Below are positions 2,303 to 62,880 of a DNA stretch of 64,000 nucleotides, in pieces. The notes under the pieces are model-generated. The model was not told where the DNA came from and made no database searches. It was given only the letters and a program-made list of their open reading frames with translations. Each line of letters begins with the position of its first letter. The first letter of the stretch is position 1. Source of the stretch: Solidesulfovibrio sp. Its GTDB lineage: Bacteria > Desulfobacterota > Desulfovibrionia > Desulfovibrionales > Desulfovibrionaceae. The position numbers and the translations under genes were made by a program. Location: contig NZ_JBCFBA010000011.1 of the NCBI RefSeq assembly GCF_038562415.1, positions 1 through 64,000 of the forward strand. The letters run 5' to 3'.

Positions 2303-2307
2303 TCCCG

Positions 2308-3081: not shown

Positions 3082-3082
3082 A

Positions 3083-6681: not shown

Positions 6682-6701
6682 CCAACAACCTTCAACTGCG
6701 G

Positions 6702-6727: not shown

Positions 6728-6743
6728 CGCCATTGGAGTCCAT

Positions 6744-7634: not shown

Positions 7635-7660
7635 ATTCAACAAGTTAGCGTTTTCCCATC

Positions 7661-7696
7661 AGGGTGGTCGGTAACGGCCACCCTTCATTTTTAAAA
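7661..7696 (+). terminator. Terminator after the TGT-like gene
   Basis: GGGTGG and CCACCC form a stem around CGGTAACGG, followed by TTCATTTTT. The position right after the stop codon at 7634, and a comparable hairpin after the paralogue at 47262-47298, support a rho-independent terminator that closes the cassette. Confidence 0.7.
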
Positions 7697-11640: not shown

Positions 11641-11779
11641 GTCCATCTGAAGGAATTCGGATGGATCGTGACCCTGTAAAATGCAAAGTAGATTCTTAAA
11701 CAAAGGTCTTCATTCGTGAAGGTTTTTTTCTTTTTATAACGGCAATATTGGTGCGTCAATTTGTGCAGTCCCATGGTCC

Positions 11780-11915
11780 GGTAAGGAATCTGTACCGGAG
11801 CCCCCCCCGTAAAATCCCCTCTCCTGGGTTTTCTGGGCCAGTCATGGGGTTTGGCATCCCCAGACAGCAAAAACCCCAGGAACAGCCCCCTAGGCCCAAA
11901 TTACGATTTTCACTC
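11780..11915 (+). repeat. GC-rich dispersed repeat, variant upstream of HTH/AbrB gene
   Basis: This noncoding stretch contains AAAATCCCCTCTCCTGGG, AAAAACCCCAGGAACAGC and CCTAGGCCCAAATTACGATT. Its closest match is at 51225-51400, which has AAAACCCCAGGAACTCG, CCTAGGGCCAAAG and ACGATTTT. Both lie about 120 bases upstream of HTH/AbrB-like genes, so they look like a second branch of the GC-rich repeat family tied to those genes. Confidence 0.5.
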
Positions 11916-12032
11916 CAGAAATACGAGAAATTTGATGCATTATGAACCCAGAAATGCGCGTTTTACCGCGTTTTTCAGCAATTCGTAGAGATATATACTG
12001 TAAAATAACATTTCCATGCAAAAGGAGCCGTT

Positions 12033-12413
12033 ATGGGAGTCAAAAATGGTAATTCAACTGACGTTTCGGACGGGAAGGCGAAGAAGAAGATCGAGTCGAA
12101 GTACGATCCGAAAACTCTTCGTAGCCTTGTCAAAGAAGGTCTGGATGCTCCTGCGATAATGGAGCGCATGAACATCAAGCACAAGCAGACGCTCAAGCAG
12201 TACCTCCTGAAACTCATCAGCACGGATCGCGTGCTCTACGACGTGAAGGGATTGTACCTGAAGGATTCGAAGCGGCCGAAGGTGAATCAACAGGGCATCT
12301 TGAAGATCAACCTCAAGGCCCACGATCTCGGTGATCTCGAAGTCAACGAAAACGACGAGTTTTCGGTCGAGGTCAGCGACTGGAAAATCATCTTGACCAA
12401 GATTCTCCCATAA
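12033..12413 (+). CDS. HTH plus AbrB-like small regulator, unit A
   Basis: This 126-residue protein has a basic N-terminus, a helix-turn-helix-like segment (TLRSLVKEGLDAPAIMERMN then KQTLKQYLLKL, about residues 35-70), and a C-terminal beta-rich part ending DLEVNENDEFSVEV..KIILTK. That end matches the swapped-hairpin AbrB/SpoVT pattern, in which a short beta barrel dimerises and binds DNA. GGAG is 6 bases before ATG 12033. Paralogues are at 51521, 38851 (minus) and 25814 (minus, broken). It is the first gene of the recombinase module and probably regulates it; that role is inferred from position. Confidence 0.7.
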   Translation: MGVKNGNSTDVSDGKAKKKIESKYDPKTLRSLVKEGLDAPAIMERMNIKHKQTLKQYLLKLISTDRVLYDVKGLYLKDSKRPKVNQQGILKINLKAHDLGDLEVNENDEFSVEVSDWKIILTKILP

Positions 12414-12422
12414 CACTCCAAC

Positions 12423-12468
12423 CGAAATGTCATGCGGATTCGTCTGCGTGGCATTTCTTCTTTTTTAA
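12423..12468 (+). terminator. Terminator after HTH/AbrB-like gene
   Basis: GAAATGTCATGC pairs with GCGTGGCATTTC, followed by TTCTTTTTT. It is a strong rho-independent terminator 10 bases after the stop codon. Confidence 0.8.
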
Positions 12469-12805
12469 CGCGTGAAACATTCAATGTACTTTTTTTGAAA
12501 CAAAAAGACTTCGCCTGTACTGACGTGATCTTAGACAAAATCGGTCAGATAGCCAGCGCACGATTCTTCGCAGGGGATTTGCGATTTTAGCCACAAAACT
12601 ACAGATATAATAATTCAGAAATACGTTTTAACGAAATAGAGGAACGAACGGTTTTACCCAATAACGTAAATTGGCCCGAGCAAAATCAAAAACTGCAAGA
12701 ATTATAAGCGGTTATCTTGCACTTTTCAAGGCCCAGTGTGAAGGGGGCAATTTTCAATGTTTCTTTCTAGCCTCCTAAAATTGAAAAACCCAATTGGAGG
12801 ATTTT
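12469..12805. promoter_or_regulatory. Intergenic region upstream of the short recombinase
   Basis: About 340 A/T-rich bases with no gene. It should hold the promoter of the short recombinase and could be a recombination site, since the corresponding stretch at 51951-52237 also separates the HTH/AbrB gene from its recombinase. I see no clear repeat. Confidence 0.35.
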
Positions 12806-13363
12806 ATGAAGGTCGAACCGATCATCAGTGCTAAAGATATCAAGAGCATCAAAAGGCTCTTGAGTAATCGTCCTCGTGACCTATTACTCTTTACCTGTGG
12901 GTGCAACTCAGGATTGCGTGTACAAGATCTCTTGGCTTTGAAAATTGGCGATGTAAAATATGCCAGTGTTGGTGATCGCATTGTCATCCGTGAAAAGAAG
13001 ACGGGCAAGGAAAACGTTTTCATGATCAACAAGGAAATCAAGGTGGCGCTTGACGAGTACTTGAAGACCATCGAGGCTAAGGACGAACACTTTCTGTTCA
13101 AGAGCCGAAAGGGCAAAAATGAACCTTTAACCACATATGCCGTAACAATGTATGTGCAGCAATGGTGCGACGCGATCAACCTTTCAGGGAATTACGGAGC
13201 GCATTCTCTTCGCAAAACCTGGTGTTACCACCAAAGAAAGACTTATGGGACATCGTGGGAGATCATAGCAAAAAGGCTTAATCATAGCAGCCCAAGCATC
13301 ACTCGCCGTTACATCGGTGTGAAGGAGGAAGAAGTCGAAGAAGTTTTGATGAAATCGATCTAA
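12806..13363 (+). CDS. Short tyrosine recombinase (catalytic domain only), unit A
   Basis: This 185-residue protein is a tyrosine recombinase reduced to its catalytic domain; full integrases have about 150 more N-terminal residues to grip DNA. All active-site residues are visible: Arg in GLRVQDLLALK, Lys in REKKTGKENV, H-x-x-R in AHSLRKTW, His in LNHSSPSI and the nucleophile Tyr in RRYIGV. ATG 12806 follows TTGGAGG with ideal spacing. A full integrase follows 106 bases later, and the pair recurs at 52238/52908. Like XerC/D pairs, the two may act together or on different sites. It could also resolve dimers of a circular form. Confidence 0.85.
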   Translation: MKVEPIISAKDIKSIKRLLSNRPRDLLLFTCGCNSGLRVQDLLALKIGDVKYASVGDRIVIREKKTGKENVFMINKEIKVALDEYLKTIEAKDEHFLFKSRKGKNEPLTTYAVTMYVQQWCDAINLSGNYGAHSLRKTWCYHQRKTYGTSWEIIAKRLNHSSPSITRRYIGVKEEEVEEVLMKSI

Positions 13364-13371
13364 ACTTTTAA

Positions 13372-13397
13372 CAAGGGGACTTACCTCCCCTTTATTT
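13372..13397 (+). terminator. Terminator between the two recombinases
   Basis: AAGGGGA and TCCCCTT form a stem around CTTACC, followed by TATTTG. A comparable hairpin lies at 52802-52830 in the second unit. Confidence 0.65.
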
Positions 13398-13469
13398 GAA
13401 TCCCTTCCCCTCCTGCATTTCTCTTAGGCATTCAATTCGAACATCAACCTGAAACAGAAGAGGTTTTTT

Positions 13470-14594
13470 ATGGGCGTCTATCAACGCGATAGCCGTTGGA
13501 TGGTCTATTGGCATGTCAACGGCAAAAGACACGACAAATCCTTCGGTCGTGGTGATCTTGCTCAAGCCAAAGCACAGGTCTTCGACAAAGCGGTTCAGGA
13601 TGCTATCGAGCATGGTTTACCGACTCCTGATCCCGAGACAGCGACGGCATCGGTCCAGGTGGTCAAAACCGTCAGCACGACGGATGCGCCCACGGGAGAA
13701 GTCCTCGGACAGAAACCTGCCGGGATCACCCTGCTCGAGCTTGGTCATCGGTATCTGGATCACATGCGTGCGTCGGGACGGACGGATAAGCACATCCGCA
13801 ACATCGAGCGCCTGCTGACAAACAAGTTCATCCCGGTCCTCGGTGATAAATCTGTAAATTCCATGACCTACCAAGGAGATATGGTGCCGTTTATCCTGCA
13901 CTTCAAGGGGATAAGCGATTCGACGAAGAAGGAGCGCTCCCAGGTTACGGTCAATAAGTACTGTGATTATCTGAACTTTATCTTCAATTTCGGGATTGCC
14001 AACGATTTTACGAAGGTCAATCCCTTGAAGAACTGGAAGAAGGGTAAAACGCAACCACGGGAAATGCGTCTGACCCTTGAAGATGCCAAGAAGATCATGG
14101 CTTGTGCAGAACCTCATTTGAGATGGGCAATGGAGGTCTGTTTCAACATCGGTGCTCGACCAGGGGAATCGGAGCTCCTGGCGCTGAAATGGGAACACGT
14201 TGACTTCAGCGCCGGGACAGTCCGCATATATGCGACGAAAACCAAGACATATCGGATTGTTCCGATCAATCCGACCTTCCTGAAACGTATGGAGGATGTT
14301 CGGGCGACATCGCAATCAGGATACATCATTGAATATAACGGGAGACCAGTAGCGCGGATCGTCAAATCCTTTCGTAATGCCTGTCAGCGAGCCGGAATCA
14401 CCTACCCTACTCGCATGTACGATCTTCGGCACCTGTTTGCGACCACCCTGCTCAGCAAAGGTGCTGATCTGGCTGCCGTGTCCAAGATGATGGGGCACGC
14501 CACGGTCAAAATGACAGCAGACACCTATTACCACTACATGGAGGGAGAAAAGGAACGAGCAGTCAAACTGTTACCAACATTGGAAGTGGCTTGA
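13470..14594 (+). CDS. Tyrosine integrase, unit A
   Basis: This 374-residue phage-type integrase starts with a short beta-rich arm domain (GVYQRDSRWMVYWHVNGKR). It then has a core-binding domain (about residues 90-185, LELGHRYLDHMRASGR) and a catalytic domain with Arg in GARPGESELLALKW, DLRHLFATTLL, MGHATVKMTADTY and the terminal Tyr in YYHYMEG. AGAGG lies 8 bases before ATG 13470. The paralogue at 52908 is highly similar over its whole length. It should integrate and excise the element. The tRNA-Val-like half 3.6 kb downstream is a candidate part of its attachment site, though integrases usually lie closer to it. Confidence 0.93.
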   Translation: MGVYQRDSRWMVYWHVNGKRHDKSFGRGDLAQAKAQVFDKAVQDAIEHGLPTPDPETATASVQVVKTVSTTDAPTGEVLGQKPAGITLLELGHRYLDHMRASGRTDKHIRNIERLLTNKFIPVLGDKSVNSMTYQGDMVPFILHFKGISDSTKKERSQVTVNKYCDYLNFIFNFGIANDFTKVNPLKNWKKGKTQPREMRLTLEDAKKIMACAEPHLRWAMEVCFNIGARPGESELLALKWEHVDFSAGTVRIYATKTKTYRIVPINPTFLKRMEDVRATSQSGYIIEYNGRPVARIVKSFRNACQRAGITYPTRMYDLRHLFATTLLSKGADLAAVSKMMGHATVKMTADTYYHYMEGEKERAVKLLPTLEVA

Positions 14595-16076: not shown

Positions 16077-17813
16077 TTAATTTTTTACCAATTGCAATGC
16101 AAATCTAGCGTATATTTCTGTATTTGCTGCCTTAGTTGCAGTCATAAGCTGTTTAAAAGTTGTAACAGCAGACGAAACATCATCTTTATTTTTTAGTTTC
16201 AAAGCATTACTCTCCATCAAAGTCTGAACAAATGCCAACGCGGCATCAACTATTGACCTCCAAATGGCAACCGCCGACTCCAAGGCTGTTCCATCAGTAA
16301 AAAAAAGCTTAAACTTGTCCGGTATCGGCTTGTTCAGTATTATTTCCATACATCCAGAAATAGCGGTAAGAAGCAAAAAATGAGACCCTCTATTTCTAAA
16401 AAAAGATAAATAAACTACATCGTTTTCTGTCATCGAATCTTGGCTTTTTGCTTGCACATCTAATTTCACTTCTAGTATGCATTTCAACAAAGAATAACAA
16501 AACAAAATATGCTGCGCGGTGGTTTTTTCTGAAAAATACAGTGAGTAAACAGCATTATTTTCCCAGATGTTTGACTTTTCATTGTATGCAATAACAGGAT
16601 CCCCATGGAATGCAGCAAGAACCTGTCCTGCCGTATCTGAAGGCAATAAATTTACAGGTCTTTTAATTTTATCTTCAAAGCCCCCGCGCCTCCCGCCCAA
16701 GTAAGTTATATTCGGTATCTGACAAAATTCAGTTCGCAATCTTTTTTGCGTAACGTCGTTACTTCTAAAATCCGAAGCTTCAATTTTGTTCTGACTATTA
16801 TTAAAAAAAATAATATTTTTAATAATCTCTTGATCACTACAGCAAACAAAACGACATTGGACCTTTAAGTCAGAACTGGGCTCTCTTCCCAACGAACCTA
16901 ACGCCCCTGTTGTTTGAGCACCATTTACTATTGAGATTCCTTCAATCTGCAACTGCTTGGTCGATTCATCATAACTAAAAGCATTCGTCAAAATAGTCAA
17001 TCCGTTGTTGTAAACACAAAACAAATCCGGACTGTTTGCCGCAGTTTCTTTTATTCCATTATTTATATTTTGATCCGACTTCCTACTCCCCAAATAACCT
17101 CTAATATTTGCCGAAAATATATCATCTTGATGCTGCAAAAAAATATTATACAACCACTGGCCAGAAACTGATGTTATAAAAGCCCTCCACTTTTCACCAA
17201 CAATTTCATATCCATCAACAACATGAAAGCCAAAAGGTTCAGTGACTAATATCGCCATAGATTGACTATGATACCAAGAGTCTAAAGTCTCAACACCTAC
17301 CTCTTTGACAGTAACCTGTACTTCTCGTTCATATGCGCTAAAATAAGTTTTAAGTGCAGAATGAACAGTCGCTGAAACAGCATTCAACTCTGCTTCAACA
17401 CCAACTGACTCATTACAATTATGTACATACCAAAACACTACATCCGTAATCAAACCGCTCTCAATTGAATCTCTTAATTTTGTAATTGCCGGCAAAAGTT
17501 TTGAAGGGATGTTGTGGAGCTCTGAAGAAAGAAGCCATGCAGCAGCAGTATTCAAATCAGAGGCCTTATTTGCAGGCGCTTGTGACTTTGATGTCTTACT
17601 AAAATATGACTGCGCTACAACTGCTCTTTGTGAATCAATATCAATATAAATCAGATCGCATTTTTTATCATCTGGACCATCCGTCAAGCTTTCAACAGCG
17701 ACTGTATGTATATCTTCAATTCCATATTTTAACTCAAGAGCAAACAAAAGCAAAGCGTTGTTACCATAACGCTCAAGGTCAGCACGCCCCTGTAGAACTT
17801 CTGCAAACCCCAT
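16077..17813 (-). CDS. AIPR family abortive-infection protein
   Basis: This 578-residue protein matches the AIPR (abortive phage infection) family. NIRGYLGSRKSDQNIN is followed by CVYNNGLTILTNAF and GISIVNGAQTTGALGSL, the hallmark N-N-G and V-N-G-A-Q-T blocks. It also has FFNNSQNKIEASDFRSND. AIPR proteins are linked to abortive phage defence and often accompany restriction-type genes; no such partner is next to it here. GGAG lies 8 bases before ATG 17813. It is more A/T-rich than the integrase module and faces the other way, between that module and the tRNA-like half, a typical slot for recently acquired cargo. Confidence 0.85.
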   Translation of the reverse strand: MGFAEVLQGRADLERYGNNALLLFALELKYGIEDIHTVAVESLTDGPDDKKCDLIYIDIDSQRAVVAQSYFSKTSKSQAPANKASDLNTAAAWLLSSELHNIPSKLLPAITKLRDSIESGLITDVVFWYVHNCNESVGVEAELNAVSATVHSALKTYFSAYEREVQVTVKEVGVETLDSWYHSQSMAILVTEPFGFHVVDGYEIVGEKWRAFITSVSGQWLYNIFLQHQDDIFSANIRGYLGSRKSDQNINNGIKETAANSPDLFCVYNNGLTILTNAFSYDESTKQLQIEGISIVNGAQTTGALGSLGREPSSDLKVQCRFVCCSDQEIIKNIIFFNNSQNKIEASDFRSNDVTQKRLRTEFCQIPNITYLGGRRGGFEDKIKRPVNLLPSDTAGQVLAAFHGDPVIAYNEKSNIWENNAVYSLYFSEKTTAQHILFCYSLLKCILEVKLDVQAKSQDSMTENDVVYLSFFRNRGSHFLLLTAISGCMEIILNKPIPDKFKLFFTDGTALESAVAIWRSIVDAALAFVQTLMESNALKLKNKDDVSSAVTTFKQLMTATKAANTEIYARFALQLVKN

Positions 17814-18204: not shown

Positions 18205-18475
18205 CACTTTTTCACAGGGGCTTTTGGAAGGATTTTAGGGGGTTAGGTCACGCTTTTGGCGTGTCAAGCAAGTGCTCTCCCCCTGAGCTACGCTCCTAGA
18301 TTCAAAATCAGGGAAGGGTTTATCTACTCAGAACTCTTCCCCAAGTCAACCCCAAATTTTCCGTTTCCCAGATTTTTTCGGGGACCAACCCGTTGGCGCT
18401 TGTTGGCACCGTGTTGGCGAGGTGGGTAAGTACGGTTTCTGGGTGGGGAGGTCAAGGGGAAAGTTTGAGAAAAGT
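18174..18475. repeat. Direct repeat around the tRNA-like half, copy 1 (candidate att site)
   Basis: The tRNA-like half and its terminator, plus about 170 bases to the right, are repeated at 62568-62880 in the same orientation. The tRNA/hairpin/terminator part is nearly identical. The outer part is diverged but keeps blocks such as GTAAGTACGG and GGGGAGGTCAAGGGG. Two such repeats 44 kb apart are what serial insertion into one tRNA locus would leave. Confidence 0.55.
18205..18298 (-). ncRNA. tRNA-Val-like 5' half with hairpin, copy 1
   Basis: On the minus strand, 18298-18259 reads as the 5' half of a tRNA: acceptor strand, the D-arm (TAGCTCAGGGGGAGAGCA) and an anticodon region TTGACAC that would give GAC (Val). 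The 3' half is not tRNA. CACGC-CAAAA-GCGTG (18249-18263) forms a hairpin, no T-arm follows, and an independent terminator comes next. A near-identical unit lies at 62601-62692. It is either a tRNA gene cut at the anticodon by integration and duplicated, or a tRNA-derived small RNA. Confidence 0.6.
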
Positions 18476-39726: not shown

Positions 39727-39954
39727 ATGGAACCACAAGACCTCGAAAGACTGGATCTGAAATCAGCAATCATCAGCGCATTCCGACCAATTGAGCAGCT
39801 TTTCAAGATTATGGACACCACCGCAATTGAAGTCGATGGAGCGATACTCCGTTCTTATAGCGAAATCGGACTCGAACTTACAAGGAACTTTCGCCAGAAA
39901 CTTGAAAACTTGCTGAACTCAAACCAGGATGGTGCTGAAAATGCCGACCGATAA
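39727..39954 (+). CDS. Small conserved element protein (75 aa)
   Basis: This 75-residue protein is the counterpart of the 73-aa protein at 1696: FRPIEQLFKIMDTT, RSYSEIG and NFRQKLE are shared. The N-terminal 15 residues differ. It overlaps the DUF6573 gene by 14 bases, indicating coupled translation. Function unknown. Confidence 0.75.
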   Translation: MEPQDLERLDLKSAIISAFRPIEQLFKIMDTTAIEVDGAILRSYSEIGLELTRNFRQKLENLLNSNQDGAENADR

Positions 39955-40330
39955 GGCTTTTGGAAACGTCATCTACTCCTACTCCAGGGCACAAGCTATC
40001 GAAGACGGAGTCCTTGTCGATGTCACCGAGCAGGCGAAAGCCACCGGGTTCAAACTACCCACGGTGGTCACCGAGAACCTGTATCATCATTATATAGAAC
40101 CACCAGCCGGGCTGGCTGGCGAGGGCCAGTCCGTGACAGGCAGGCTTCATGATCTGCTGACGCTGGCGCTGTTCGCAGCCAAGAGGGCGGTCAACTCGGA
40201 CAGGGTCTATTTCAAGGTGAGCTTCCTGATGTCCCCAGGACGATCAGAATCCGTCGAGGTCATTGCCCATATCGGCCCTGGCGACAGCGTGGAACCTGTC
40301 CTGACGATCATGCTCCCTGAGGATGACTGA
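39941..40330 (+). CDS. DUF6573 family protein, unit B
   Basis: This 129-residue protein is closely similar to that at 1910: DKAFGNVIYSYSRAQAIEDG, GRLHDLLTLALFAAK, VYFKVSFLM, IGPGDSVEPVLTIMLPEDD. ATG 39941 is chosen by alignment with the paralogue; an in-frame ATG at 39929 is 12 bases upstream. It is convergent with an XRE gene as in unit A. Confidence 0.8.
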   Translation: MPTDKAFGNVIYSYSRAQAIEDGVLVDVTEQAKATGFKLPTVVTENLYHHYIEPPAGLAGEGQSVTGRLHDLLTLALFAAKRAVNSDRVYFKVSFLMSPGRSESVEVIAHIGPGDSVEPVLTIMLPEDD

Positions 40331-40353: not shown

Positions 40354-40680
40354 TCACTTCTGGATCAGCACCCGGGCCATGGTCAGGATCGCTCGCACTT
40401 GCTCTTCACTGGCCCCGGCCAGCAACTCCAGAAGTTCTTTCTGCACCTGTTCCCGCGTCATGCCGACATCCCCGAGGTCAAAGAGGGATGCCAAATCTTC
40501 CTCGAGTGCGGCGGATAATCTTTCGATATTCACCAAGGTCGGATTCCCCCTGCCCCGTTCGATCTCCCCAACGCTTTGGAGGGACAGCCCCGCCCGCTCC
40601 GCAAGCTGCTCCTGGGTCATGTCCTTTGCCCGCCGCAATGACCGGACACGTTTTCCAAAAACCTTAAGAATCTCGCCCAT
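40354..40680 (-). CDS. XRE-family HTH regulator, unit B
   Basis: This 108-residue protein has the Cro/CI helix-turn-helix (TQEQLAERAGLSLQSVGEIE, RGRGNPTL). The C-terminal part (REQVQKELLELLAGASEEQV) is helical. AAGGACGG precedes ATG 40680. It is divergent from the flagellin gene, so it may also influence flagellin transcription; that is inference from position only. Confidence 0.88.
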   Translation of the reverse strand: MGEILKVFGKRVRSLRRAKDMTQEQLAERAGLSLQSVGEIERGRGNPTLVNIERLSAALEEDLASLFDLGDVGMTREQVQKELLELLAGASEEQVRAILTMARVLIQK

Positions 40681-40828
40681 GGAACCGTCCTTTTCGGACA
40701 GTTTAGGGCTAGCGTGTCGTTCTTATAAGAAAGTTAGGTATGCAAATTGCTAGATATTAACAAGTAAACTTTATTTTTTGTTAATTTTTCCGTCTGAGCC
40801 TTGATTCCTGGCGGTTCAGGCCCCGGGC

Positions 40829-40894: not shown

Positions 40895-42748
40895 ATGGCA
40901 TTGGTCATAAACCACAACCTCATGGCGATGAACTCCGCCAGAAATTTGTCAGACCACTATGGGGCGCTGAGCACGTCGACCCAGCGGCTGTCGTCTGGGC
41001 TGCGGATCAATTCCGCCGCCGACGACGCTGCCGGACTCGCTGTCCGGGAGTTGATGCGATCCGATGTCAGCACCATGAACCAGGGGATCAGGAACGCTAA
41101 CGATGCCATCTCCATGATCCAGACAGCGGATGGGGCATTACAAGTGATCGATGAAAAGTTGATTCGGATGAAGGAACTGGCCGAGCAAGCTGCAACTGGA
41201 ACTTACACGAGTGATCAAAGAATAATTATTGACAGCGAATTTCAAGCGATGTCCAGCGAAATAAATAGGATAGCAAACGCCACCAATTTCAACGGGATAA
41301 CGATGATAAATTCTATAAATCCAGACACTAACCCTATGTCCGTTCAAAACTGGGAACAGTTGAATTCATCTTCATTCAACAGCCCGGACAATATCACTAC
41401 GAATGCCTTCGAAAATTACAATGGAAATTTAATAGCAGGGACTGGCAACGCCAACGGTGGGGAGATATGGTCTTATGATGGGGCGCAATGGTCCCAGATA
41501 AATACTGCCGGATTCGGTGACCCTAACAATAGAACTGTATATAACACAAAAACATACAATGGTTCCTTGTATGCCAGTGTATACAATACCGTCTCAGGAG
41601 TTCAAATTTGGAAATATGATGGATCAAACTGGTCAAAAGTTAACACGAACGGATTTGGCAATGCAAATAATATATATGCCGAAACAATGAAAGTTTACGA
41701 TGACAAGCTCTATGTGGCCACAAGAAATGATGCAACGGGAAGTGAAGTTTATTCTTATAACGGAAGTAGCTGGTCCCAAGTTTCAACTGGGGGTTTTGGT
41801 GATTCAGACAACTTTGTCACACTGTCGTTAGAAGAATTTAGAGGCGAGCTATACGCTGGCACAGCGAATAATGTCGACGGGTCGCAAGTTTATAAACTTA
41901 GTGGATCATCTTGGATCCAAGTAAACCAATCAGGATATGGAAATATTGACAATGTCCAAACGCAGTCTTTAACAGCGTACAACAACAAACTTTATTCTGG
42001 AACAGCAAATTTTTCTGATGGAGGTTCGGTTTATGTTTACGACGGACAGTCGTGGACTCAAATAAGTGAATCTGGATTTGGCGATTTAAATAATAATTAT
42101 ATCGAAAACGTGTCTATGTTTAACAATAGAATTTATGCCTCAACAAATAATTCTGCAGAAGGGACACAAGTCTGGGCTTATGACGGAACTACTTGGGCTC
42201 AAATAAACACTAATGGTTTTGGGACAAGCGACAATGTTTATGCAAACGGCTTGTTTGTCTACAACCACCAACTAGTAGCTGGAACATTCAATCCATCCTC
42301 AGGGACTCAAATATGGGCTCTCGATAAGATTAAAAATGAAAGCATAAAAATTCATTTCGGAACAGGGAATAGCTCTTCCGAAGACTATTATTATATTATG
42401 CGATCAAATATGACATCAGGCGTTGACGGATTGAACATTCAATATCTGGACGTCAAGACCCAATATGGCGCGCAATACTCGCTGGACGAACTTTCAGCGG
42501 CAATGATTAAAACGAATACTGTCCGAGCAAATCTTGGAGCAACACAAAACCGCCTTGAAAATACAATTTCAAACCTACAAATCCAAGCAGAGAATCTTCA
42601 GACTGCTGAATCGCAAATATCAGATACAGACGTTGCCCAGGAAATGACCTCATTCGTGAAAGAACAAATATTATCACAAGCATCTGTCGCCATGCTTGCC
42701 CAAGCAAACTCGCTGCCGAAGATGGCATTGCAAATAATCACCGGTTAA
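40895..42748 (+). CDS. Flagellin with a seven-repeat beta-propeller insertion
   Basis: This 617-residue flagellin has normal ends. Residues 1-145 carry the D0/D1 start (MALVINHNLMAMNSARNL, STQRLSSGLRINSAADDAAG), and residues 545-617 carry the D1/D0 end (NLGATQNRLENTISNLQIQA, FVKEQILSQASVAMLAQAN). Between them, about residues 150-480, are seven repeats of 46-47 residues, each starting with W-x-Q/K-hydrophobic and carrying GFG, NGxLY/L, a Thr-x-Asn turn, G-x-Q/E-V/I-W/Y and YDG. Seven such units predict a closed seven-bladed beta-propeller displayed on the filament. It could bind a ligand, sugar or surface. GGAG is 10 bases before ATG 40895. Export chaperones and a cap gene are not nearby, so it must use the host flagellar system. 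Confidence 0.93.
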   Translation: MALVINHNLMAMNSARNLSDHYGALSTSTQRLSSGLRINSAADDAAGLAVRELMRSDVSTMNQGIRNANDAISMIQTADGALQVIDEKLIRMKELAEQAATGTYTSDQRIIIDSEFQAMSSEINRIANATNFNGITMINSINPDTNPMSVQNWEQLNSSSFNSPDNITTNAFENYNGNLIAGTGNANGGEIWSYDGAQWSQINTAGFGDPNNRTVYNTKTYNGSLYASVYNTVSGVQIWKYDGSNWSKVNTNGFGNANNIYAETMKVYDDKLYVATRNDATGSEVYSYNGSSWSQVSTGGFGDSDNFVTLSLEEFRGELYAGTANNVDGSQVYKLSGSSWIQVNQSGYGNIDNVQTQSLTAYNNKLYSGTANFSDGGSVYVYDGQSWTQISESGFGDLNNNYIENVSMFNNRIYASTNNSAEGTQVWAYDGTTWAQINTNGFGTSDNVYANGLFVYNHQLVAGTFNPSSGTQIWALDKIKNESIKIHFGTGNSSSEDYYYIMRSNMTSGVDGLNIQYLDVKTQYGAQYSLDELSAAMIKTNTVRANLGATQNRLENTISNLQIQAENLQTAESQISDTDVAQEMTSFVKEQILSQASVAMLAQANSLPKMALQIITG

Positions 42749-43624: not shown

Positions 43625-44578
43625 CTATTTCTTGACTTCTCGCTTCCATTTTCTTGCACTCTTTTGTGGATCATTTGCCTTCTTTTTATCAAGAGCATGC
43701 TCAAAAACCATCCTCATTACTGTCCTCGAGTTAGCGAGCTTCCCTCGCGACAAATAACTCAATTCTTGTTTATAATTTTCCATAACTTCTGAATCTAAAT
43801 CTTTATTAGGATATTTTTTCAGCAATTTTTTCTTGATTGGCAATAAAATTTTATCGTTCATCTTCCCAACAACATCTTTAGAAATTTTATCGTGAAGACG
43901 CTTGTCACCTTTCTCCCATAATTCATAAATAATCTCAACAGCTTTAGAATTTAATTCTTTTGTCGTCTTCCACCTCTTGTTCTGCCCTCTTGCAGAAATA
44001 GCACTATGAATCAGCTTTGTGACTTCGTCTGTCTGAAAAAAATAACCATAAAGATCTAAATCAGTAAATGACAAATACATCAAAACATACAACGACTTAA
44101 TAAAGCTCGGAGCTATAGATGATGACTCCCCCACCTTAACCATATTTATTGCACTCAAAATTTCTAAATATCTGTTCAAATTCTCCTTGACATACTCAAC
44201 ACTTTTTGCATCTCCCCCTGACTCAAACTCCTTACTTACTAAACCATAAAAATAACTCCATGCTTTTGTTGAAAAATCACTACATGTCTCAATTGATTCA
44301 TCTCTGAAATCAAACTTTTTTTCAATATTACGTTCCAACGCCAAACCATGAATTTTCTTGTATGGTCCACTCTGAATAAGGTTCATAAAATGATCACGAT
44401 AAAACTCGATACAAGATCGAACCAAAAGCAATGCACCATTAAAGTCCGATGGATCCCCTTTTTCTTTTTTATATGCCCTCAAATACTCTAAAATTTTATT
44501 ACGACTCAAATGTTCTTCATGAAAGTCGGCATCTTTATCACGCAAACTCTCAGCCTTATTCGAATCTTTCTTTACCAT
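43625..44578 (-). CDS. Cassette protein 1, unit B (317 aa, unknown)
   Basis: This 317-residue protein is the counterpart of that at 3893-4873: ISARGQNKRWKTTKELNSKA, GDKRLHDKISKDVVG, YLSRGKLANS. The C-terminus is very basic (WKREVKK). ATG 44578 follows GGAGG with about 10 bases spacing; a longer frame from 44623 lacks support. It is divergent from the 505-aa gene, as in unit A. Together the two copies show a conserved C-terminal half and a more variable N-terminal half. Function unknown. Confidence 0.75.
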   Translation of the reverse strand: MVKKDSNKAESLRDKDADFHEEHLSRNKILEYLRAYKKEKGDPSDFNGALLLVRSCIEFYRDHFMNLIQSGPYKKIHGLALERNIEKKFDFRDESIETCSDFSTKAWSYFYGLVSKEFESGGDAKSVEYVKENLNRYLEILSAINMVKVGESSSIAPSFIKSLYVLMYLSFTDLDLYGYFFQTDEVTKLIHSAISARGQNKRWKTTKELNSKAVEIIYELWEKGDKRLHDKISKDVVGKMNDKILLPIKKKLLKKYPNKDLDSEVMENYKQELSYLSRGKLANSRTVMRMVFEHALDKKKANDPQKSARKWKREVKK

Positions 44579-44765
44579 AAAATAACCCTCCGTTGCCTCC
44601 GATTGCCAGTGCCAGCCGCACATACCCGGTGCTCATATCGCTGACCTAAGAGATGTCAAGTCCCCCATATAGACTACTCCTCCACCCAATACACTATCGC
44701 CATAAGTTGCTGAAATCCCACGGGTTCCTGTAGAGACACGCTCATCTCAACCAAAGGAGGCCCAC

Positions 44766-46283
44766 ATGGGCACAAAGTTCGGACCGGGCGAACCTCGCCA
44801 GCAGATACCAGCCAGAATCATAAAGCGCCCCGAAACACCTATCACGCCGGCACCAGGATCGGCCGCAGCGACAGCCACGCAGTTAGACCCTGGCACGACG
44901 CGCCCGGTCGAAATCCAGGAGAAGGAGAACGACATGAACACCCCCACCAGCATGACCGAAGAAGCAGTTGCTGCCCCAGCGGCGGGTTTGGACACCGAGC
45001 CGGTGGATGACGCCACAGTATCTGAAGAAGATTCGGCTTCGCTGGCCGCAAATAATGCCGAAGGGCACCAGGAAGAACCCCAGGCGGGCACTACCACGGA
45101 CGACGATGCCGCTGTTGTCGGCTCGGACCAAACGTCTGAGAATGATCACGAGGCTCTCCCGCCTGCGCCACAGGATGACAGCGAGGCTGCGGTGGAAACA
45201 AAGGATGCGGCCATGCCGGAGTCCGATTCCTGCCGCACGGATTCTAACATTGAGAGCAAGGAAGCGGCCGCCGATCACCCCACTCCGTGCAAAGCTGTTC
45301 CGAAGCAAAGCTCGGCAGAAAAGGTTGAGCATTACGCAGCGCAGTTCAAGTTCATTTTTGAAAGCTTGTCAGCGGGTGGCGATATGACCAAAACCAAAAA
45401 GGACGGGCTCCAAAAATTTGACAAAATGCGTGGCCATTTCAAATCCATGATCATGAAGAACGCCACGCTTCCCGAAAAGCTTAATATTGTTTCGTCGATT
45501 AACACAGCAATATCCCCGGTTATGGTAAAAGCAGACACTCTCAGAGCGATCTGTCTCATCATTAATGGCGATATGGCCAACACCATAAAAATCGATGTTC
45601 CGCACGGCGACTGGATAAAAACGTCTGCGCAAGTCTTCCCGCACCTTGAATTGCGCCAACTGCAAAACGCCATGAAGCTTGCTGACATCGGAAAATCAGC
45701 AATGTACTGTCACCTTGGAGTTACCAAACTCCTTAAACTCGCAAATATTGCGTGCAGATCTCCGTTTAATAGCGCAGATGACCCTATCGGCATGGTCCTA
45801 GAAAGTGCCGGCGGAAAATCTTCGTTCCTGGAAGAAGATTACGACATGCTGGCTAAGATTGCCATCGCAGATTATAAGTTGAAAGACAAGGGCTTACACA
45901 TTGAGCTTAAGGCTCTTCGCAACTTTGTTGAGATCGGTCAAGAGATTACCGGCGCGGATATTGCGGAGATGCTTGCGATGCAGAAGCTCTTGGAAAAGAA
46001 TCCCGACGCCCCTACGCCGACGGACTTTATCCGGGCCAATAGCAAAAACGAAAGAAAACGCGTTTATGCCCTGACCGGTAAAGACGGAAAGAAGCGCGAC
46101 ACACAAAAGGGGAGTAATTCCCCGTCTATCCCAGACATTAATAGCATGTTCACGAAGACGCGGGAAACGATCACTTTGGCGACTGCCAATTTCGATCTCA
46201 AAGAGGCAAAAGTGGACCGGGAATTATACGACGGACTCATGGCTGATCTCGCCGCCTTCGGCAAAAAAGCTTTCCCATCTTAA
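44766..46283 (+). CDS. Cassette protein 2, unit B (505 aa, unknown)
   Basis: This 505-residue protein has the same three-part build as that at 5173: a short N-terminal block (ARIIKRPE, DPGTTRPVE), an acidic Ala/Glu/Asp-rich linker (about 60-185), and a conserved helical domain with ISPVMVKADTLRA, PHGDWIKTSAQVFP, CHLGVTKLLKLA, ADDPIGMVLE, DFIRANSKNE and IPDINSMFTKTRETI. AAAGGAGG precedes ATG 44766. The linker is poorly conserved while both ends are kept, so the linker is probably a tether. It precedes the TGT-like gene as in unit A. Confidence 0.82.
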   Translation: MGTKFGPGEPRQQIPARIIKRPETPITPAPGSAAATATQLDPGTTRPVEIQEKENDMNTPTSMTEEAVAAPAAGLDTEPVDDATVSEEDSASLAANNAEGHQEEPQAGTTTDDDAAVVGSDQTSENDHEALPPAPQDDSEAAVETKDAAMPESDSCRTDSNIESKEAAADHPTPCKAVPKQSSAEKVEHYAAQFKFIFESLSAGGDMTKTKKDGLQKFDKMRGHFKSMIMKNATLPEKLNIVSSINTAISPVMVKADTLRAICLIINGDMANTIKIDVPHGDWIKTSAQVFPHLELRQLQNAMKLADIGKSAMYCHLGVTKLLKLANIACRSPFNSADDPIGMVLESAGGKSSFLEEDYDMLAKIAIADYKLKDKGLHIELKALRNFVEIGQEITGADIAEMLAMQKLLEKNPDAPTPTDFIRANSKNERKRVYALTGKDGKKRDTQKGSNSPSIPDINSMFTKTRETITLATANFDLKEAKVDRELYDGLMADLAAFGKKAFPS

Positions 46284-46349: not shown

Positions 46350-47234
46350 ATGGACTTATATCTTTCTTCGCCGTCACCTACAGCACTGAATCTTGTTCAA
46401 GAACGGTCCCCGGAAAGCAAACTAGACATTCTGCTCACGAGCGCCAGGATGCCTTCAGATGTTGCGGCACATATGACCCAATTTGACGGGATAACCCGAA
46501 AATGGGCATTAGACAGCGGGGCATTTAGCGACAACAACTCAAAACTTAATATTAGCAGACGAGAACTATTCTCTCGTCATGTTAATTACGCAAAAGAATA
46601 TGGCGACAAGTTCGACGTAATTTTTAACTTTGACGTCGATTTTGAGCCTGATGGCTTTCACACAAACAACGCGTATCTCCAGGAACTCAAAGAAAACGGG
46701 ATTAACGCTGTGCCGGTGATCCACAATTTAAAAAATCACGAAATCGATACGTTTATTGAAGGCGGCTACGATTATGTAGCCATCGGACAGCAAGAGGACA
46801 AAGCTAAACCTGACACACTGTTTCCTGGGGTGTTTAAGCTGCACAGTCATGGCGTAAAAACGCACCTTTTCGGCATTACGGACTTTGGATTAATTGCCGG
46901 GTGTCCTGCCACGTCATGCGATTCCAAATCCTGGCTAGACGACGCGCTCACGGGTGTAGTTCGCTTCTGGAACCCAGAAAAGCCGGGTGAAAACAAAACG
47001 GATGTAATCTATTTTCCAAATGAACTTGGCAAGAGAAAAACCGGCACGTTCCTGTGCACCGAATACAGCCACATTGACCAGTTCAAGCGTTTCATTGGCA
47101 AGTATGGCCTGACAATTGACGACTTGCGTGGCTTAAATGGGAACGTAAACAAAGAGTTCCTTGGAATAATCTATTACGAAACCGTGGCGAAGGTCGTTAC
47201 AGCAACACATGCGACCACACCCCTATTCCTTTAG
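46350..47234 (+). CDS. TGT/DpdA-like TIM-barrel protein, unit B
   Basis: This 294-residue protein is similar along its length to that at 6744. Here the key block reads ALDSGAFS, the normal form in this superfamily, with FNFDVDFEPDGF, PVIHNL, VAIGQQED, HLFGITDF and TSCDSKSWLDDALTG. Family members of the DpdA type exchange a guanine for a 7-deazaguanine in DNA or act on RNA; which applies here cannot be told from sequence. AGAGGAG lies before ATG 46350. This copy looks catalytically more canonical than the unit A copy. Confidence 0.72.
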   Translation: MDLYLSSPSPTALNLVQERSPESKLDILLTSARMPSDVAAHMTQFDGITRKWALDSGAFSDNNSKLNISRRELFSRHVNYAKEYGDKFDVIFNFDVDFEPDGFHTNNAYLQELKENGINAVPVIHNLKNHEIDTFIEGGYDYVAIGQQEDKAKPDTLFPGVFKLHSHGVKTHLFGITDFGLIAGCPATSCDSKSWLDDALTGVVRFWNPEKPGENKTDVIYFPNELGKRKTGTFLCTEYSHIDQFKRFIGKYGLTIDDLRGLNGNVNKEFLGIIYYETVAKVVTATHATTPLFL

Positions 47235-48072: not shown

Positions 48073-49938
48073 ATGTTAAAAAACTTCATCAAACAATCAC
48101 CGACTGAAAACGTCCCATCACCAACACCAGGAGCGCCGGCACCTATTCTCATTAAACAGCGCATCGCCGATGCTCCAGTAGCTATGGATACAGTCCTTCC
48201 ATGGCGTTATTTGTTAACCAAAAAATTGAGCATCGACAAACAAAGCGAATCCGGGGGCCAGATCATATCGCGATACCCTCTTTTCATTTCCGAACTGTCC
48301 AAAAACAGAAGTACCGGGCTGCACTATGTCACCCTGTCATGGAAAGCCGACGGGAGATGGCACGACTTGCAAGTTGAACGCTGTATGATCGCAACAAAAT
48401 CTAATATTGTAGCCTTATCTAACTACAACATTCCTGTCACAAGTTTGAATGCAAATTATCTCATTGAATATCTCCAGGAATACGAACAGGTAAATACCAG
48501 AAATATTCCCAGAGCATTTGTCGAAAATCGATTAGGCTGGACTGATGACATGTCGGGTTTTCTATGGGGGCATTCGTACTTAACTGGTCCTTCTGTGCAG
48601 CAATCATCCAGTCAACCCTCCGTCGTGCGTTTTAAAGGGGCCGACCAGGGAGATGAGCAGTTTGCGGATGGATTTAAACAAAACGGTGATTTTCCTACAT
48701 GGATTTTACTTGCAAACGAACTACTCGAATATCCTGACGTCGCATTTTCCATGTACACTTCGCTATCGGCACCACTCCTTCCAATCCTGGGAGTTGATAA
48801 TTTCACTTTGGAACTTTGCGCTCCTAGTTCTTCTGGTAAAACGTCTACGCTGAAGTTTGCAGCTTCTGCCTGGGGAAATCCATCGTTTGCTTCTGGATCA
48901 TTTATCAATACCTGGAATGGAACCGACAATCGTATTGGACGAATTGCAGGCCTGCTCAATGGTCTGCCACTTTTCTTAGACGAAACTAAATTTGCTGAAA
49001 AGTACAAAAACAAGAATAGATACGGGAGCGACCTTGTCACAGACACCATCTACATGATCGCATCTGGGCTGGACAAAGGTCGGGCGACAATCCATGGCTC
49101 TGATGGGTTGAAATCGTTCAGAACTATCCTCTTTTCTACTGGAGAAACCCCCAGCTTGGACCTGAGCAATGATGGCGGCTCACGGGGCAGGATTATTGAT
49201 CTTTGTGGAATACCTTTCCTGAAACAGGACTCAGAAAGCAATGAAGTTGTGAACAAGATAAAGCACACCATCGATGATCATTATGGTCATGCTGGACCTT
49301 GCCTAGTTCAATTCATCCTGAATCATCGAGATCAATGGCCATTATGGAAAAGTGCTTACAAAGAAACAAGACAGATGTTGACTCAATTTCAAAACATGTC
49401 TCCAATTGAAATGAGACTGACAGAATACTTTGCCGCAGTGGCAATCGCTATTCCGATTGTCCATGCTGCAATCCCAGGACTCAGAAGGGATAAACCTGTC
49501 GTTGAATTATTTAGACAGGTTTGGGAACGTGCTAAATATGAAGCATCTTCAGCTGACATTGGACTCAAAGCTATTCAATGCGTTGACGACTGGATCAAGA
49601 TCAATCCAGACAAAATATATTCTCCAGATAATGTTCGTAAAAATATACTTTGGTCAGGAGATAGATTCGGGGCTTATTGGGATAATCAAGGTGACGACAA
49701 CTGGACTTTCATTGGATTAACCAAGCCCTGCCTAGATGATCTACTCCGAAAGAATAATCTTAAAACCAATGAAATCGTCAGACTCTGGAAAAACAAAGGC
49801 TGGCTCTGGACTGATGGATCTTCAAAAGGATATCAACGACAAGTGGCAATTCCAGGAACAGTGAACGGAACTAGCACAATGAAACTAAACCTCTACTGTA
49901 TCAGTAAACAGAATTTAGTAAGTGCAGTGAAGAACTAG
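48073..49938 (+). CDS. DUF927 helicase-like ATPase
   Basis: This 621-residue protein belongs to the DUF927 family found on integrative elements, plasmids and SaPI-like islands. The central domain (about residues 200-470) has the P-loop LCAPSSSGKTSTLKFA, an acidic Walker B-like LPLFLDETK, and the sensor-like TILFSTGETPSLDLSN. The C-terminal part (about 500-621) probably contains a winged helix. Family members are thought to act in element replication. It takes the slot of the primase-helicase in unit A, so the units appear to use unrelated replication proteins. The ribosome binding site is not strong. Confidence 0.82.
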   Translation: MLKNFIKQSPTENVPSPTPGAPAPILIKQRIADAPVAMDTVLPWRYLLTKKLSIDKQSESGGQIISRYPLFISELSKNRSTGLHYVTLSWKADGRWHDLQVERCMIATKSNIVALSNYNIPVTSLNANYLIEYLQEYEQVNTRNIPRAFVENRLGWTDDMSGFLWGHSYLTGPSVQQSSSQPSVVRFKGADQGDEQFADGFKQNGDFPTWILLANELLEYPDVAFSMYTSLSAPLLPILGVDNFTLELCAPSSSGKTSTLKFAASAWGNPSFASGSFINTWNGTDNRIGRIAGLLNGLPLFLDETKFAEKYKNKNRYGSDLVTDTIYMIASGLDKGRATIHGSDGLKSFRTILFSTGETPSLDLSNDGGSRGRIIDLCGIPFLKQDSESNEVVNKIKHTIDDHYGHAGPCLVQFILNHRDQWPLWKSAYKETRQMLTQFQNMSPIEMRLTEYFAAVAIAIPIVHAAIPGLRRDKPVVELFRQVWERAKYEASSADIGLKAIQCVDDWIKINPDKIYSPDNVRKNILWSGDRFGAYWDNQGDDNWTFIGLTKPCLDDLLRKNNLKTNEIVRLWKNKGWLWTDGSSKGYQRQVAIPGTVNGTSTMKLNLYCISKQNLVSAVKN

Positions 49939-52237: not shown

Positions 52238-52792
52238 ATGAAAGTGGAGCCGATCATCAACATGAAAGACATCAAGAGCATCAAGAAACTCTTGGTGGAT
52301 CGTCCGAGGGACAGGCTACTATTCGTGCTAGGTATTAATTCTGGACTGAGAGTACAGGACCTTTTGGCCCTTAAAATCTCAGACGTTAGAACCTGTAGCA
52401 TCGGCGACAGGGTTAGTATCAAAGAAAAGAAAACTGGCAAAGAAAACGTCTTCATTATGAACAAGGAGATCAAAACAGCTTTGGATGAGTACTTGCGATG
52501 CGCTAAACGCCAAGATGACCACTACCTTTTCAAAAGCCGAAAAGGCCAGAACTATCCATTAACTACCTATGCCGTAACCATGATGGTTCAAAGGTGGTGC
52601 GACGAGATCAATCTCAAGATCAATGCGGGTGCACACACTCTACGCAAGACATGGTGCTATCAACAAAGGCAAATGGGTTCATCGTGGGAACTACTTGCGA
52701 AGCGGTTGAACCACAGCACACCTTCAATAACAAGGAGATACCTTGGAGTTCAGGAGGAAGAGGTTGAAGAAATATTGATGAAATCCATTTAA
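52238..52792 (+). CDS. Short tyrosine recombinase (catalytic domain only), unit B
   Basis: This 184-residue protein is highly similar to that at 12806. Active-site residues are intact: Arg in SGLRVQDLLALK, Lys in KEKKTGKENVF, H-x-x-R in AHTLRKTW, His in LNHSTPSI, Tyr in RRYLGV. ATG 52238 follows AAAGGAG; a longer frame from 52181 is not conserved in unit A. It forms a fixed pair with the integrase 115 bases downstream. Confidence 0.86.
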   Translation: MKVEPIINMKDIKSIKKLLVDRPRDRLLFVLGINSGLRVQDLLALKISDVRTCSIGDRVSIKEKKTGKENVFIMNKEIKTALDEYLRCAKRQDDHYLFKSRKGQNYPLTTYAVTMMVQRWCDEINLKINAGAHTLRKTWCYQQRQMGSSWELLAKRLNHSTPSITRRYLGVQEEEVEEILMKSI

Positions 52793-52907: not shown

Positions 52908-54032
52908 ATGGGCGTTTACCAGCGAAGTGAACGATGGATGGTCTATTATCATGTGAATGGCAAGCGACACGACAAGTCCTTTGGGCGCGGCGAACTCGCA
53001 CAGGCCAAAGCTCAAGTTTTCGACAAAGCTGTTCGGGAAGCCCTCGAGCATGGGCAACCGATTCCTGATCCGGCATTAGTGACCGCGCCTGTCCAGGTGG
53101 TGAAAACTGTCAGCCTGAACAATGAGCCAAGTAGCCAGGTCCTGGGCCAGCAACCAACAGGGATGACGTTGTCCGATCTTGGGGCCAGATACCTGGATCA
53201 TATGCGAGCATCAGGGCGCACGGATAACCACATCCGCAACATTGAGCGCCTGCTAGCGAACAAGTTCATTCCGGTCCTTGGAGACAAACCGGTGAACTCG
53301 ATGACCTACCAGGGGGATATGGTTCCGTTTATCCTGCATTTCCAAGGGATAAGCGACAAAACCAAGAAGGAACGGTCCCAGGTAACGATCAATAAGTACT
53401 GCGATTACCTGAACTTCATGTTCCACTTCGGGATTGCCAACGATTTCACCAAGGTCAATCCCTTGAAAAACTGGAAAAAAGCAAAGACTCAACCCAGGGA
53501 AATGAAGCTGACCCTGGACGATGCCAAGAAGATTATGGCCTGTGCTGAACCCCATCTCAAATGGGCCATGGAGGTCTGCTTCAACATCGGCGCACGTCCT
53601 GGAGAATCGGAACTCCTGGCGCTGAAATGGGAGCATGTTGATTTCAATGCAGCAACGGTCCGCATCTATGCGACGAAAACCAAGACCTATCGGATTGTTC
53701 CCATTAATCCGATTTTCCTGAAGCGCATGGAGCAAGTTCGTGCGACTTCACAGTCTGGATTCATCATCGAGTACAATGGGAAGCCTGTCTCTCGGATTGT
53801 CAAATCCTTTAGAAATGCCTGCACTCGTGCTGGAATTAGCTACCCAACTCGAATGTACGATCTGCGTCATTTGTTCGCTACAACTCTGCTTAGAAAAGGT
53901 GCTGACCTTGCGGCTGTGTCTAAGATGATGGGTCACAGCACGGTCAAGCTCACAGCCGACACTTATTACCACTATATGGAAGGCGAGAAGGAAAGAGCAG
54001 TTCGCTTGCTACCTGAGTTGTTGGCAAGCTAG
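52908..54032 (+). CDS. Tyrosine integrase, unit B
   Basis: This 374-residue integrase is nearly collinear with that at 13470. It has the arm domain GVYQRSERWMVYYHVNGKR, the core-binding domain (LSDLGARYLDHMRASGR), and a catalytic domain with GARPGESELLALKW, DLRHLFATTLL, MGHSTVKLTADTY and YYHYMEG. TTGGAGG lies 7 bases before ATG 52908; the in-frame start at 52890 is less likely. The two integrases are alike enough that they could recognise the same site, which fits serial insertion at one tRNA-like locus. Confidence 0.93.
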   Translation: MGVYQRSERWMVYYHVNGKRHDKSFGRGELAQAKAQVFDKAVREALEHGQPIPDPALVTAPVQVVKTVSLNNEPSSQVLGQQPTGMTLSDLGARYLDHMRASGRTDNHIRNIERLLANKFIPVLGDKPVNSMTYQGDMVPFILHFQGISDKTKKERSQVTINKYCDYLNFMFHFGIANDFTKVNPLKNWKKAKTQPREMKLTLDDAKKIMACAEPHLKWAMEVCFNIGARPGESELLALKWEHVDFNAATVRIYATKTKTYRIVPINPIFLKRMEQVRATSQSGFIIEYNGKPVSRIVKSFRNACTRAGISYPTRMYDLRHLFATTLLRKGADLAAVSKMMGHSTVKLTADTYYHYMEGEKERAVRLLPELLAS

Positions 54033-62600: not shown

Positions 62601-62880
62601 CTTTTTGAAAGGGGCTTCTTTAAAGATTTTAGGGGGTTAAATCACGCTTTTGGCGTGTCAAGCAAGTGCTCTCCCCCTGAGCTACGGTCCTATAAACAGA
62701 ATCAGGGAACAGGCTAAATGCCCCAAACTCGTCCCGAAGTCAATCCCAAATCTTTCGTTCCCAAGAAAAAGTTTGGGGCCAAAACCGTTGGCTTCGTTGG
62801 CGCGTCGTTGGCTCGGGGTAAGTACGGATTTGGTATGGGGAGGTCAAGGGGTTTTTACTCGGGGGAGGAGAAATTCGGAC
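62568..62880. repeat. Direct repeat around the tRNA-like half, copy 2 (candidate att site)
   Basis: This matches 18174-18475 in the same orientation. Beyond the tRNA-like part the shared blocks include AATCAGGGAA, AAGTCAA-CCCAAAT, GTAAGTACGG and GGGGAGGTCAAGGGG. The segment between the copies contains the signalling block and unit B. Confidence 0.55.
62601..62692 (-). ncRNA. tRNA-Val-like 5' half with hairpin, copy 2
   Basis: On the minus strand from 62692 it reads TAGGACCG, then the D-arm TAGCTCAGGGGGAGAGCA, the GAC-type anticodon region, and the CACGC-CAAAA-GCGTG hairpin (62643-62657). The TAACCCCCTAAAATC stretch follows as in copy 1. No T-arm is present. It is near-identical to 18205-18298 through its terminator. 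An intact tRNA-Val is not in the window. Confidence 0.6.

Follow-up and report, generated by a model that had tools for sequence, protein, structure and literature searches.

What is a flagellin with a large repetitive insert doing in a mobile stretch of DNA, and what might such an insert do for the cell that carries it? The question is raised by a 617-residue protein encoded at 40895–42748 on the forward strand of a 64,000-nucleotide stretch of Solidesulfovibrio sp., here called the window. On the basis of the observations set out below, we consider, with a probability of roughly 60%, that the host receives an alternative flagellin from a tRNA-targeting integrative element of Desulfovibrionaceae, and that this changes the filament surface, probably for adhesion.

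The gene is a complete open reading frame with an ATG start and no interruption. A Pfam search matched Flagellin_N to residues 5–141 (E 5.3e-36, profile positions 1–137 of 139) and Flagellin_C to residues 531–614 (E 9.9e-21, profile positions 2–85 of 86). Both profiles are matched over almost their full length, so the ends are normal on both sides, as the initial annotation had proposed, and the protein has the complete cores at both ends that mark a bacterial flagellin. The N core comprises residues 1–140 (40895–41314, forward strand) and the C core residues 531–617 (42485–42745, forward strand), the latter preceded by a hairpin, FGTGNSSSEDY, that starts at residue 488 on the same strand and lies between the insert and the C core. 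No peptidase family is listed for the protein up to E 10. The genome encodes five flagellins, namely three of 297 residues, in stretches with a GC content of 0.64–0.67, and two large ones of 617 and 688 residues, in stretches of GC 0.48–0.50. Compared with the three 297-residue host flagellins, the N part of the 617-residue protein is 83, 83 and 81% identical and the C part 59–61% identical.

Seven repeats of 46, 47, 47, 47, 47, 47 and 48 residues occupy about residues 153–481. The sequence has a self-similarity of 1.90 at lag 47, whereas 500 shuffles gave no value above 0.006 at lags of 5–199, and the back-to-back arrangement noted initially is clearly present. The motifs noted in each repeat are as described, except that GFG is replaced by FNS in repeat 1 and by GYG in repeat 5. 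An AlphaFold2 model of the whole protein, made from nine aligned sequences, has pLDDT values of 84–97 per ten-residue block over residues 161–470 and contains seven groups of four strands, 28 in all. Confidence is low for the flagellin core in this model, probably because it was covered by only two rows of the alignment. When the domain was modelled alone (8 sequences), 28 strands were again obtained, with a pLDDT of 93.0 and a pTM of 0.92. The outer domain (residues 153–480, 41351–42334 on the forward strand) is therefore predicted, from the models and from structure comparison, to be a seven-bladed β-propeller, with seven blades of four strands each arranged as a closed ring. That the ring closes is inferred from the way in which the whole domain superposes on solved propellers. 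The prediction fits the blade count and the range, residues 140–490, that had been suggested for modelling.

The superpositions are good, and the sequence similarity is very low. VIA-align gave Z 30.6 and 2.1 Å over 284 residues to 2z2p, and Z 30.7 and 2.2 Å over 286 residues to 2qc5, both of which are streptogramin B lyases. Foldseek placed the EPTP propeller of LGI1 at the top (E 9.6e-12, TMq 0.72), with PLL3 at rank 37. Streptogramin B lyases, the LGI1 EPTP domain and PLL lectins are all seven-bladed propellers. Sequence identity in the structural alignments to these proteins is 9–12%, and the nearest solved-structure match by sequence profile, again LGI1, is marginal (E 0.003). Among the Pfam propeller families none matched the domain above its gathering score, the top one being KIB1-4 at 16.2 against 27.4 bits, and the best such match with the whole 617-residue protein scored 13.9 bits, also under the cut-off. 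The profile search that had been proposed for the repeat thus shows that no curated Pfam family covers it above cut-off.

Relatives of the propeller module occur both inside and outside flagellins. A scan of genome contigs found six loci, consisting of a flagellin of S. alcoholivorans DSM 5433 (G002), which is 89% identical to that of the window and 90% identical in the propeller, and five proteins from metagenome-assembled genomes (MAGs). The latter come from Peregrinibacteria (41% identity), Patescibacteria (two, 38%), Gracilibacteria (32%) and Actinomycetota (30%). By eye, all five (L090–L094) are secreted multi-domain proteins with starts resembling signal peptides. The propeller stretches are 334–362 residues long in six of the seven that were delimited; that of L092 was cut at 293 by an end marker. 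The MAG proteins therefore have the repeat in common with the window flagellin, at 30–41% identity, and differ in that the module is part of a multi-domain protein rather than embedded in a flagellin. Within the class, 8 of 347 genomes have a propeller match at E 0.001 or better. In four of these (the window genome, G002, G004 and G218) the match lies inside a flagellin, and at the matching loci of the other four no flagellin was seen, 1.5-kb flanks included. The G218 protein belongs to another genus of the same family. The search for similar fusions elsewhere was therefore fruitful, yielding propeller flagellins in three further genomes, one of them of another genus.

An origin of the propeller from phages or plasmids was also considered and rejected. 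A search of 50,697 phage records gave no match at E 1e-3, and in IMG/VR no stretch fitted the flagellin patterns and none of the 88 stretches fitting the propeller pattern encodes a relative. Matches to the flagellin were found in 177 plasmid records, none of them over 80% of its length and none at 60% identity or above. The cassette DNA had a single match in plasmid records, of 144 bases.

The initial annotation placed the gene in an integrative unit, and this is well founded. Direct repeats of half of a tRNA-Val (GAC) gene, taken as attachment sites, lie at 18259–18297 (39 of 39 positions) and 62653–62691 (38 of 39), both on the forward strand; two tyrosine integrases are found at 52.2–54.0 kb; and the island has a GC content of 0.36–0.52 in 2-kb steps, compared with 0.62–0.73 beyond about 68.25 kb. 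The gene order is a DUF6573 protein (39929–40330, forward, E 2.9e-29), an XRE regulator on the reverse strand, the flagellin, two proteins of no family, one of 332 residues (43625–44623, reverse) and one of 505 residues (44766–46283, forward), a queuine tRNA-ribosyltransferase-like protein (46350–47234, forward, phrog_887, E 1.1e-20), a DUF927 primase/helicase (48073–49938, forward), and the small (52238–52792, forward, phrog_216, E 1.6e-43) and large (52908–54032, forward, phrog_1, E 3.8e-58) integrases. The PHROGs scan covered ten window proteins. In a comparison of 12 loci, several of which were fetched in part only, DUF6573 was present at all 12, relatives of the large integrase at nine, and relatives of the ribosyltransferase-like protein (30–54% identity) also at nine, the window included. 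The latter gene possibly has a role in nucleic-acid modification. The distance from the large integrase to the right repeat is 8.6 kb, which implies cargo or a nested insertion between them, and the right border is less certain here than in the related elements of G002 and of contig C8 of the window genome.

The window also holds, to the left of the flagellin element, a sister unit whose backbone is related (1910–14594, forward strand), with DUF6573 at 1910, an XRE regulator at 2314–2625 on the reverse strand, a ribosyltransferase-like copy at 6744–7634 and integrases at 12806–14594. The only relatives of the 332- and 505-residue proteins were found in this unit, at 33 and 42% identity respectively. 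Its flagellin slot is filled by another gene (3083–3592), which suggests that the flagellin is one cargo among several. An AbiU/Abi-alpha-like abortive infection protein is encoded on the reverse strand at 16080–17813, adjoining the left attachment repeat (phrog_1841, E 1.7e-136; PADLOC AbiU, E 8e-33). The segment 18953–38784 of the flagellin element encodes chemoreceptors, CheW, a CheW-receiver (CheV-like) protein, a hybrid kinase, a response regulator, and GGDEF and EAL/HDOD proteins, so that c-di-GMP and chemotaxis genes lie near the mobile flagellin.

Other genomes have elements of the same type. In S. alcoholivorans (G002) the element is 17.5 kb long (598782–616328); it has 44-bp tRNA-Glu repeats, and its integrases lie at the end. 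The second large flagellin of the window genome, of 688 residues (L032 6470–8533, reverse strand; also L035), lies on a 29.3-kb element (contig C8, 157159–186488) that has a tRNA-Glu repeat of 49 bp at each end. Both of these elements have what is expected of tRNA-integrating elements, namely tRNA-end repeats at both borders and a tyrosine integrase; the corresponding repeats in the window are 39 nt long. The C8 element also has a weak match to a type III restriction enzyme (E 1.2e-5). It aligns with contig C52 of G022, from a different genus (g10), over 29,336 bp at 99.3% identity. The match ends at the element borders, the flanks being different, which argues against contamination. Such similarity across two genera bears on excision or transfer indirectly only. 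Further examples come from nine genomes of a tRNA-Val comparison, which had been selected for enlarged flagellins. In G004 there is a tandem array, with an intact tRNA-Val at 1171618 and half-copies at 1122962, 1091823 and 1060227, and the array unit adjoining the intact gene contains two large flagellins. In G003 and G008 an intact tRNA-Val and a half-copy enclose an XRE-linked flagellin. A reverse-transcriptase-like reading frame (L149, G218:C10 144432–145826, reverse strand; YVDD by eye), flanked by integrase relatives, is found at a distance of about 3 kb from the G218 propeller flagellin. We therefore exclude the reading that the window gene is a chromosomal flagellin that happens to lie beside an island, because tRNA repeats enclose the gene and because it has a relative in a bounded element.

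The gene preceding the flagellin encodes an XRE/Cro-type regulator of 108 residues (40354–40680, reverse strand; HTH_3, E 3e-14), which is divergent from the flagellin and lies 215 bp upstream. In a search of 119 genomes, the window genome included, all nine full-length matches at 59% identity or above are divergent neighbours of a flagellin, and one of them (G035) is from another family of the order. No such match was found in 9 of the 13 genus relatives searched. More distant XRE proteins adjoin a flagellin in G003, G008, G011, G013 (C44:29402) and G044, and also in G218. The XRE-adjacent flagellins are enlarged in 13 of 13 cases, against 7 of 24 others (Fisher p 2.2e-5, relatedness ignored), in a set of 37 flagellins whose lengths were taken and which favours long ones. 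The truncated G013:C44:242 was excluded from this set; in the table of flagellins and their XRE neighbours, G015:C9:6228 was dropped for lack of a usable N-terminal match and the G004 propeller flagellin was entered twice; among the 13, G044 overruns its locus (at least 430 codons), and the genes of G008 and G011:C4, which are broken, were counted as enlarged. The regulator adjoins three of the four propeller flagellins (those of the window, G002 and G218). The fourth, in G004, sits behind another, XRE-linked flagellin, and is one of the seven enlarged ones without an adjacent XRE. The regulator is not exclusive to flagellins, since at 11 of the 12 loci L049–L060, where the XRE proteins are 35–50% identical in the aligned part, there is no flagellin within 1.5 kb. 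The same is true of L061, L063 and L062 (G005:C129, a partial 60% match over 48 residues), and of the XRE in the sister unit.

Two motifs lie between the regulator and the flagellin. One is GG-N8-TTGC, a σ54-like −24/−12 motif (40737–40750, forward strand), and the other is an operator-like 13-mer, AAGTAAACTTTAT (40762–40774, forward strand). Both were picked from an alignment and counted later, and many of the 15 cassettes compared are closely related. Twelve of the 15 cassettes, and 3 of 40 other flagellins, have the σ54-like motif within 215 bp upstream of the flagellin; within 300 bp the number of cassettes is unchanged, and that of the others is 4 of 40. Four of these 40 controls are enlarged flagellins that have no adjacent XRE. 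The motif is missing within 300 bp from three cassettes, of which that of G002 has a copy at −368. Over entire intergenic regions, therefore, 13 of 15 cassettes have the motif, against a mean of 1.2 and a maximum of 5 in 200 shuffles. Sites resembling a σ28 promoter show the opposite distribution, being found in none of the 15 cassettes and in 13 (within 215 bp) or 23 (within 300 bp) of the 40 others, and a σ28-like promoter at the cassettes was therefore rejected. The 13-mer AAGTAAACTTTAT has six exact copies in the five genomes searched, all about 120–135 bp upstream of cassette flagellins; the copy in G004 is at the second, tandem flagellin, and there is none in G002. A reversed control pattern gave one match in G007 and one in G022. 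We also considered whether the XRE protein might repress the host flagellins through this site. The exact site occurs at cassettes only and was not found at host flagellin genes in the genomes searched, and such repression is therefore unsupported.

The flagellins differ most in what they carry between their cores. In the 688-residue protein the repeat is of another kind, EFxVNT...DGGFVVSW, with matches to plasmid proteins whose annotations include Ig-like, calcium-binding and tandem-95. A flagellin of G005 (L011, G005:C52 532–2040, reverse strand) has a Laminin_G_3 or concanavalin-A-like (LamG-like) domain (E 3.7e-26). There are thus at least three types of outer domain, and the core hairpin FGTGN..EDY marks two insertion points for them among the flagellins compared. 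In the LamG flagellin and all four propeller flagellins the insert precedes the hairpin, and in all seven EFxVNT-type flagellins it follows. The window gene is 98% identical to the EFxVNT-type flagellin gene of G004 over 500 bp upstream and 97% over codons 1–60, falling to 63% over codons 120–140. Against G002, which has a propeller as well, the values are 75% upstream (286 aligned positions), 82% over codons 1–60 and 90.5% over codons 120–140. Near-identical cassettes, as aligned here, bear different outer domains. The last 90 codons of the window gene are nearest to G007 (80%) and G002 (78%), which looks like another sign of mosaicism. Between the window and G002, dS is 0.94 in the N core, 0.53 in the propeller and 2.1 (near saturation) in the C core, and dN/dS is 0.085 in the propeller and 0.077 over the entire gene (NG86, one pair). 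We read these values as suggesting that recombination inside the core swapped heads and that purifying selection acted afterwards.

The intact cores, the predicted head, the element borders, the cassette, the exchange of heads and the selection on them can all be read from the sequence comparisons. From these we propose the following mechanism. The XRE protein would keep the flagellin promoter off, or tune it, at the operator-like site, and once it is released σ54 RNA polymerase would transcribe the flagellin gene. The product would be exported by the flagellar secretion system of the host and would co-polymerise with, or follow, the 297-residue host flagellins, with propellers standing out from the filament. 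Adhesion to polysaccharide, cells or minerals is the most likely benefit of the altered surface; we rank it first on account of the heads, which are conserved and look like portions of secreted, adhesin-like proteins. Related mobile elements carry other, interchangeable heads, which implies that travelling DNA may change both the look of the filament and its adhesion. It is tempting to go further and see in the elements a family that distributes interchangeable flagellar heads horizontally among Desulfovibrionaceae. Each would bring a flagellin with its own regulation, propeller, lectin-like or other adhesin-like domains would be exchanged by recombination on the conserved stem, and the propeller would bind a specific environmental ligand; this is a tentative suggestion, for which the chances fall a little short of even.

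The benefit ranked second, after adhesion, is receptor masking against phages, where a re-coated filament escapes phages that bind flagella and the flagellin serves as a defence function beside the other defence genes of the elements. Diverse and swappable surfaces would suit an arms race, and there is an AbiU-like gene in the sister unit as well as the weak type III restriction match on the C8 element. We nevertheless consider this unlikely, because the low dN/dS of the propeller in the one pair analysed and its relatives in other phyla point to a surface that is kept rather than to plain escape. The authors of PMC13418256 also considered phage resistance an unlikely primary cause in their system, for which a screen had revealed no flagellotropic phage.

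The remaining alternatives question whether the protein is part of a filament, or does anything at all. It might be an adhesin that is secreted or shed using the flagellar export signal. This would suit a regulator and upstream motif unlike those of other flagellins, and the fact that the scan of window products revealed no further flagellar structural gene. Polymerisation requires the N and C cores, however, and both are complete and conserved with those of the host flagellins, which makes a shed protein improbable. More improbable still is that the gene is silent or decaying cargo, carried by the element without a function. The reading frame is broken in 2 of the 13 XRE-linked flagellins (G011:C4 8048 and G008:C1 3583958), so cassettes do also decay, and most of the genus relatives searched had no close full-length match to the regulator, as noted above. 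Against this, the dN/dS over the entire gene is low, and the regulator and upstream motifs are conserved. We therefore retain the proposal that the element adds a working filament subunit with a new, probably adhesive, surface.

Flagellins on mobile elements, such as the prophage TldR–FliCP, and flagellins with inserted domains are already known, and each ingredient of the system described here has a precedent. No propeller flagellin was found in the literature searched, and neither was an XRE cassette with a σ54-like motif spread by tRNA-targeting elements in Desulfovibrionaceae; most subscription papers were outside the scope of this search. A study from 2024 reportedly clustered AlphaFold models of flagellin outer domains, and may contain a propeller cluster. 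Repression and excision have been reported for the flkA, fllA, flmA and flnA loci of E. coli, and to our knowledge no propeller occurs in their flagellins. Sialidases have a six-bladed propeller fold. A ‘Sialidase’ domain is listed in ten flagellin hypervariable regions in Table 1 of Eckhard et al. (2017; PMC5595980), the main text of which does not use the word propeller. The statement in the initial annotation that no propeller flagellin had been described was therefore too strong. The same article reports 61 domains in flagellin hypervariable regions and filaments with active protease. Its flagellinolysins resemble the present case in having a functional domain in the hypervariable region, with the gene or the domain spread laterally, and differ in that the domain is a gluzincin metallopeptidase and the context contains flagellar genes, whereas the window flagellin has a propeller and no Pfam peptidase match, and is not a flagellinolysin.

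The closest parallel is the FRphi prophage of Enterobacter, which according to the sections of PMC13418256 consulted encodes TldR and FliCP and replaces the host flagellin. Here too a mobile element has its own regulator beside a flagellin with enlarged outer domains, and the host filament is probably changed. In FRphi the host flagellin promoter is repressed by an RNA-guided, TnpB-like regulator, the vehicle is a Siphoviridae-like prophage and the outer domains are D2–D4 (PMC13418256). In the window the neighbour of the flagellin is an HTH_3/XRE protein and not a TnpB-like repressor, there is a σ54-like motif and no sign that host flagellin is targeted, the vehicles are tRNA-targeting elements in another phylum, and the heads are a propeller and others. 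The four E. coli loci are similar in that they are extra flagellin genes outside fliC, described as imports in the portion of PMC7018530 consulted, which also reports exchange of hypervariable regions by recombination and imported flagellin loci, and counts flagellin outer domains among the most variable protein surfaces. A propeller is described in a biofilm adhesin of Pseudoalteromonas, according to the part of PMC12153261 consulted.

These results bear on where new flagellin outer domains come from and how they spread. Sequence comparison across genera reveals the vehicle (integrative elements), the unit (a regulator with its flagellin) and the places of exchange (two insertion sites within the core). 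Like the Enterobacter prophages, but independently of them, the system would be a case in which mobile DNA remodels the flagellum, and the filament would be a natural scaffold that could show a seven-bladed propeller thousands of times. If the more tentative suggestion made above is true, the surface of the Desulfovibrionaceae flagellum would be a modular trait that is shared horizontally.
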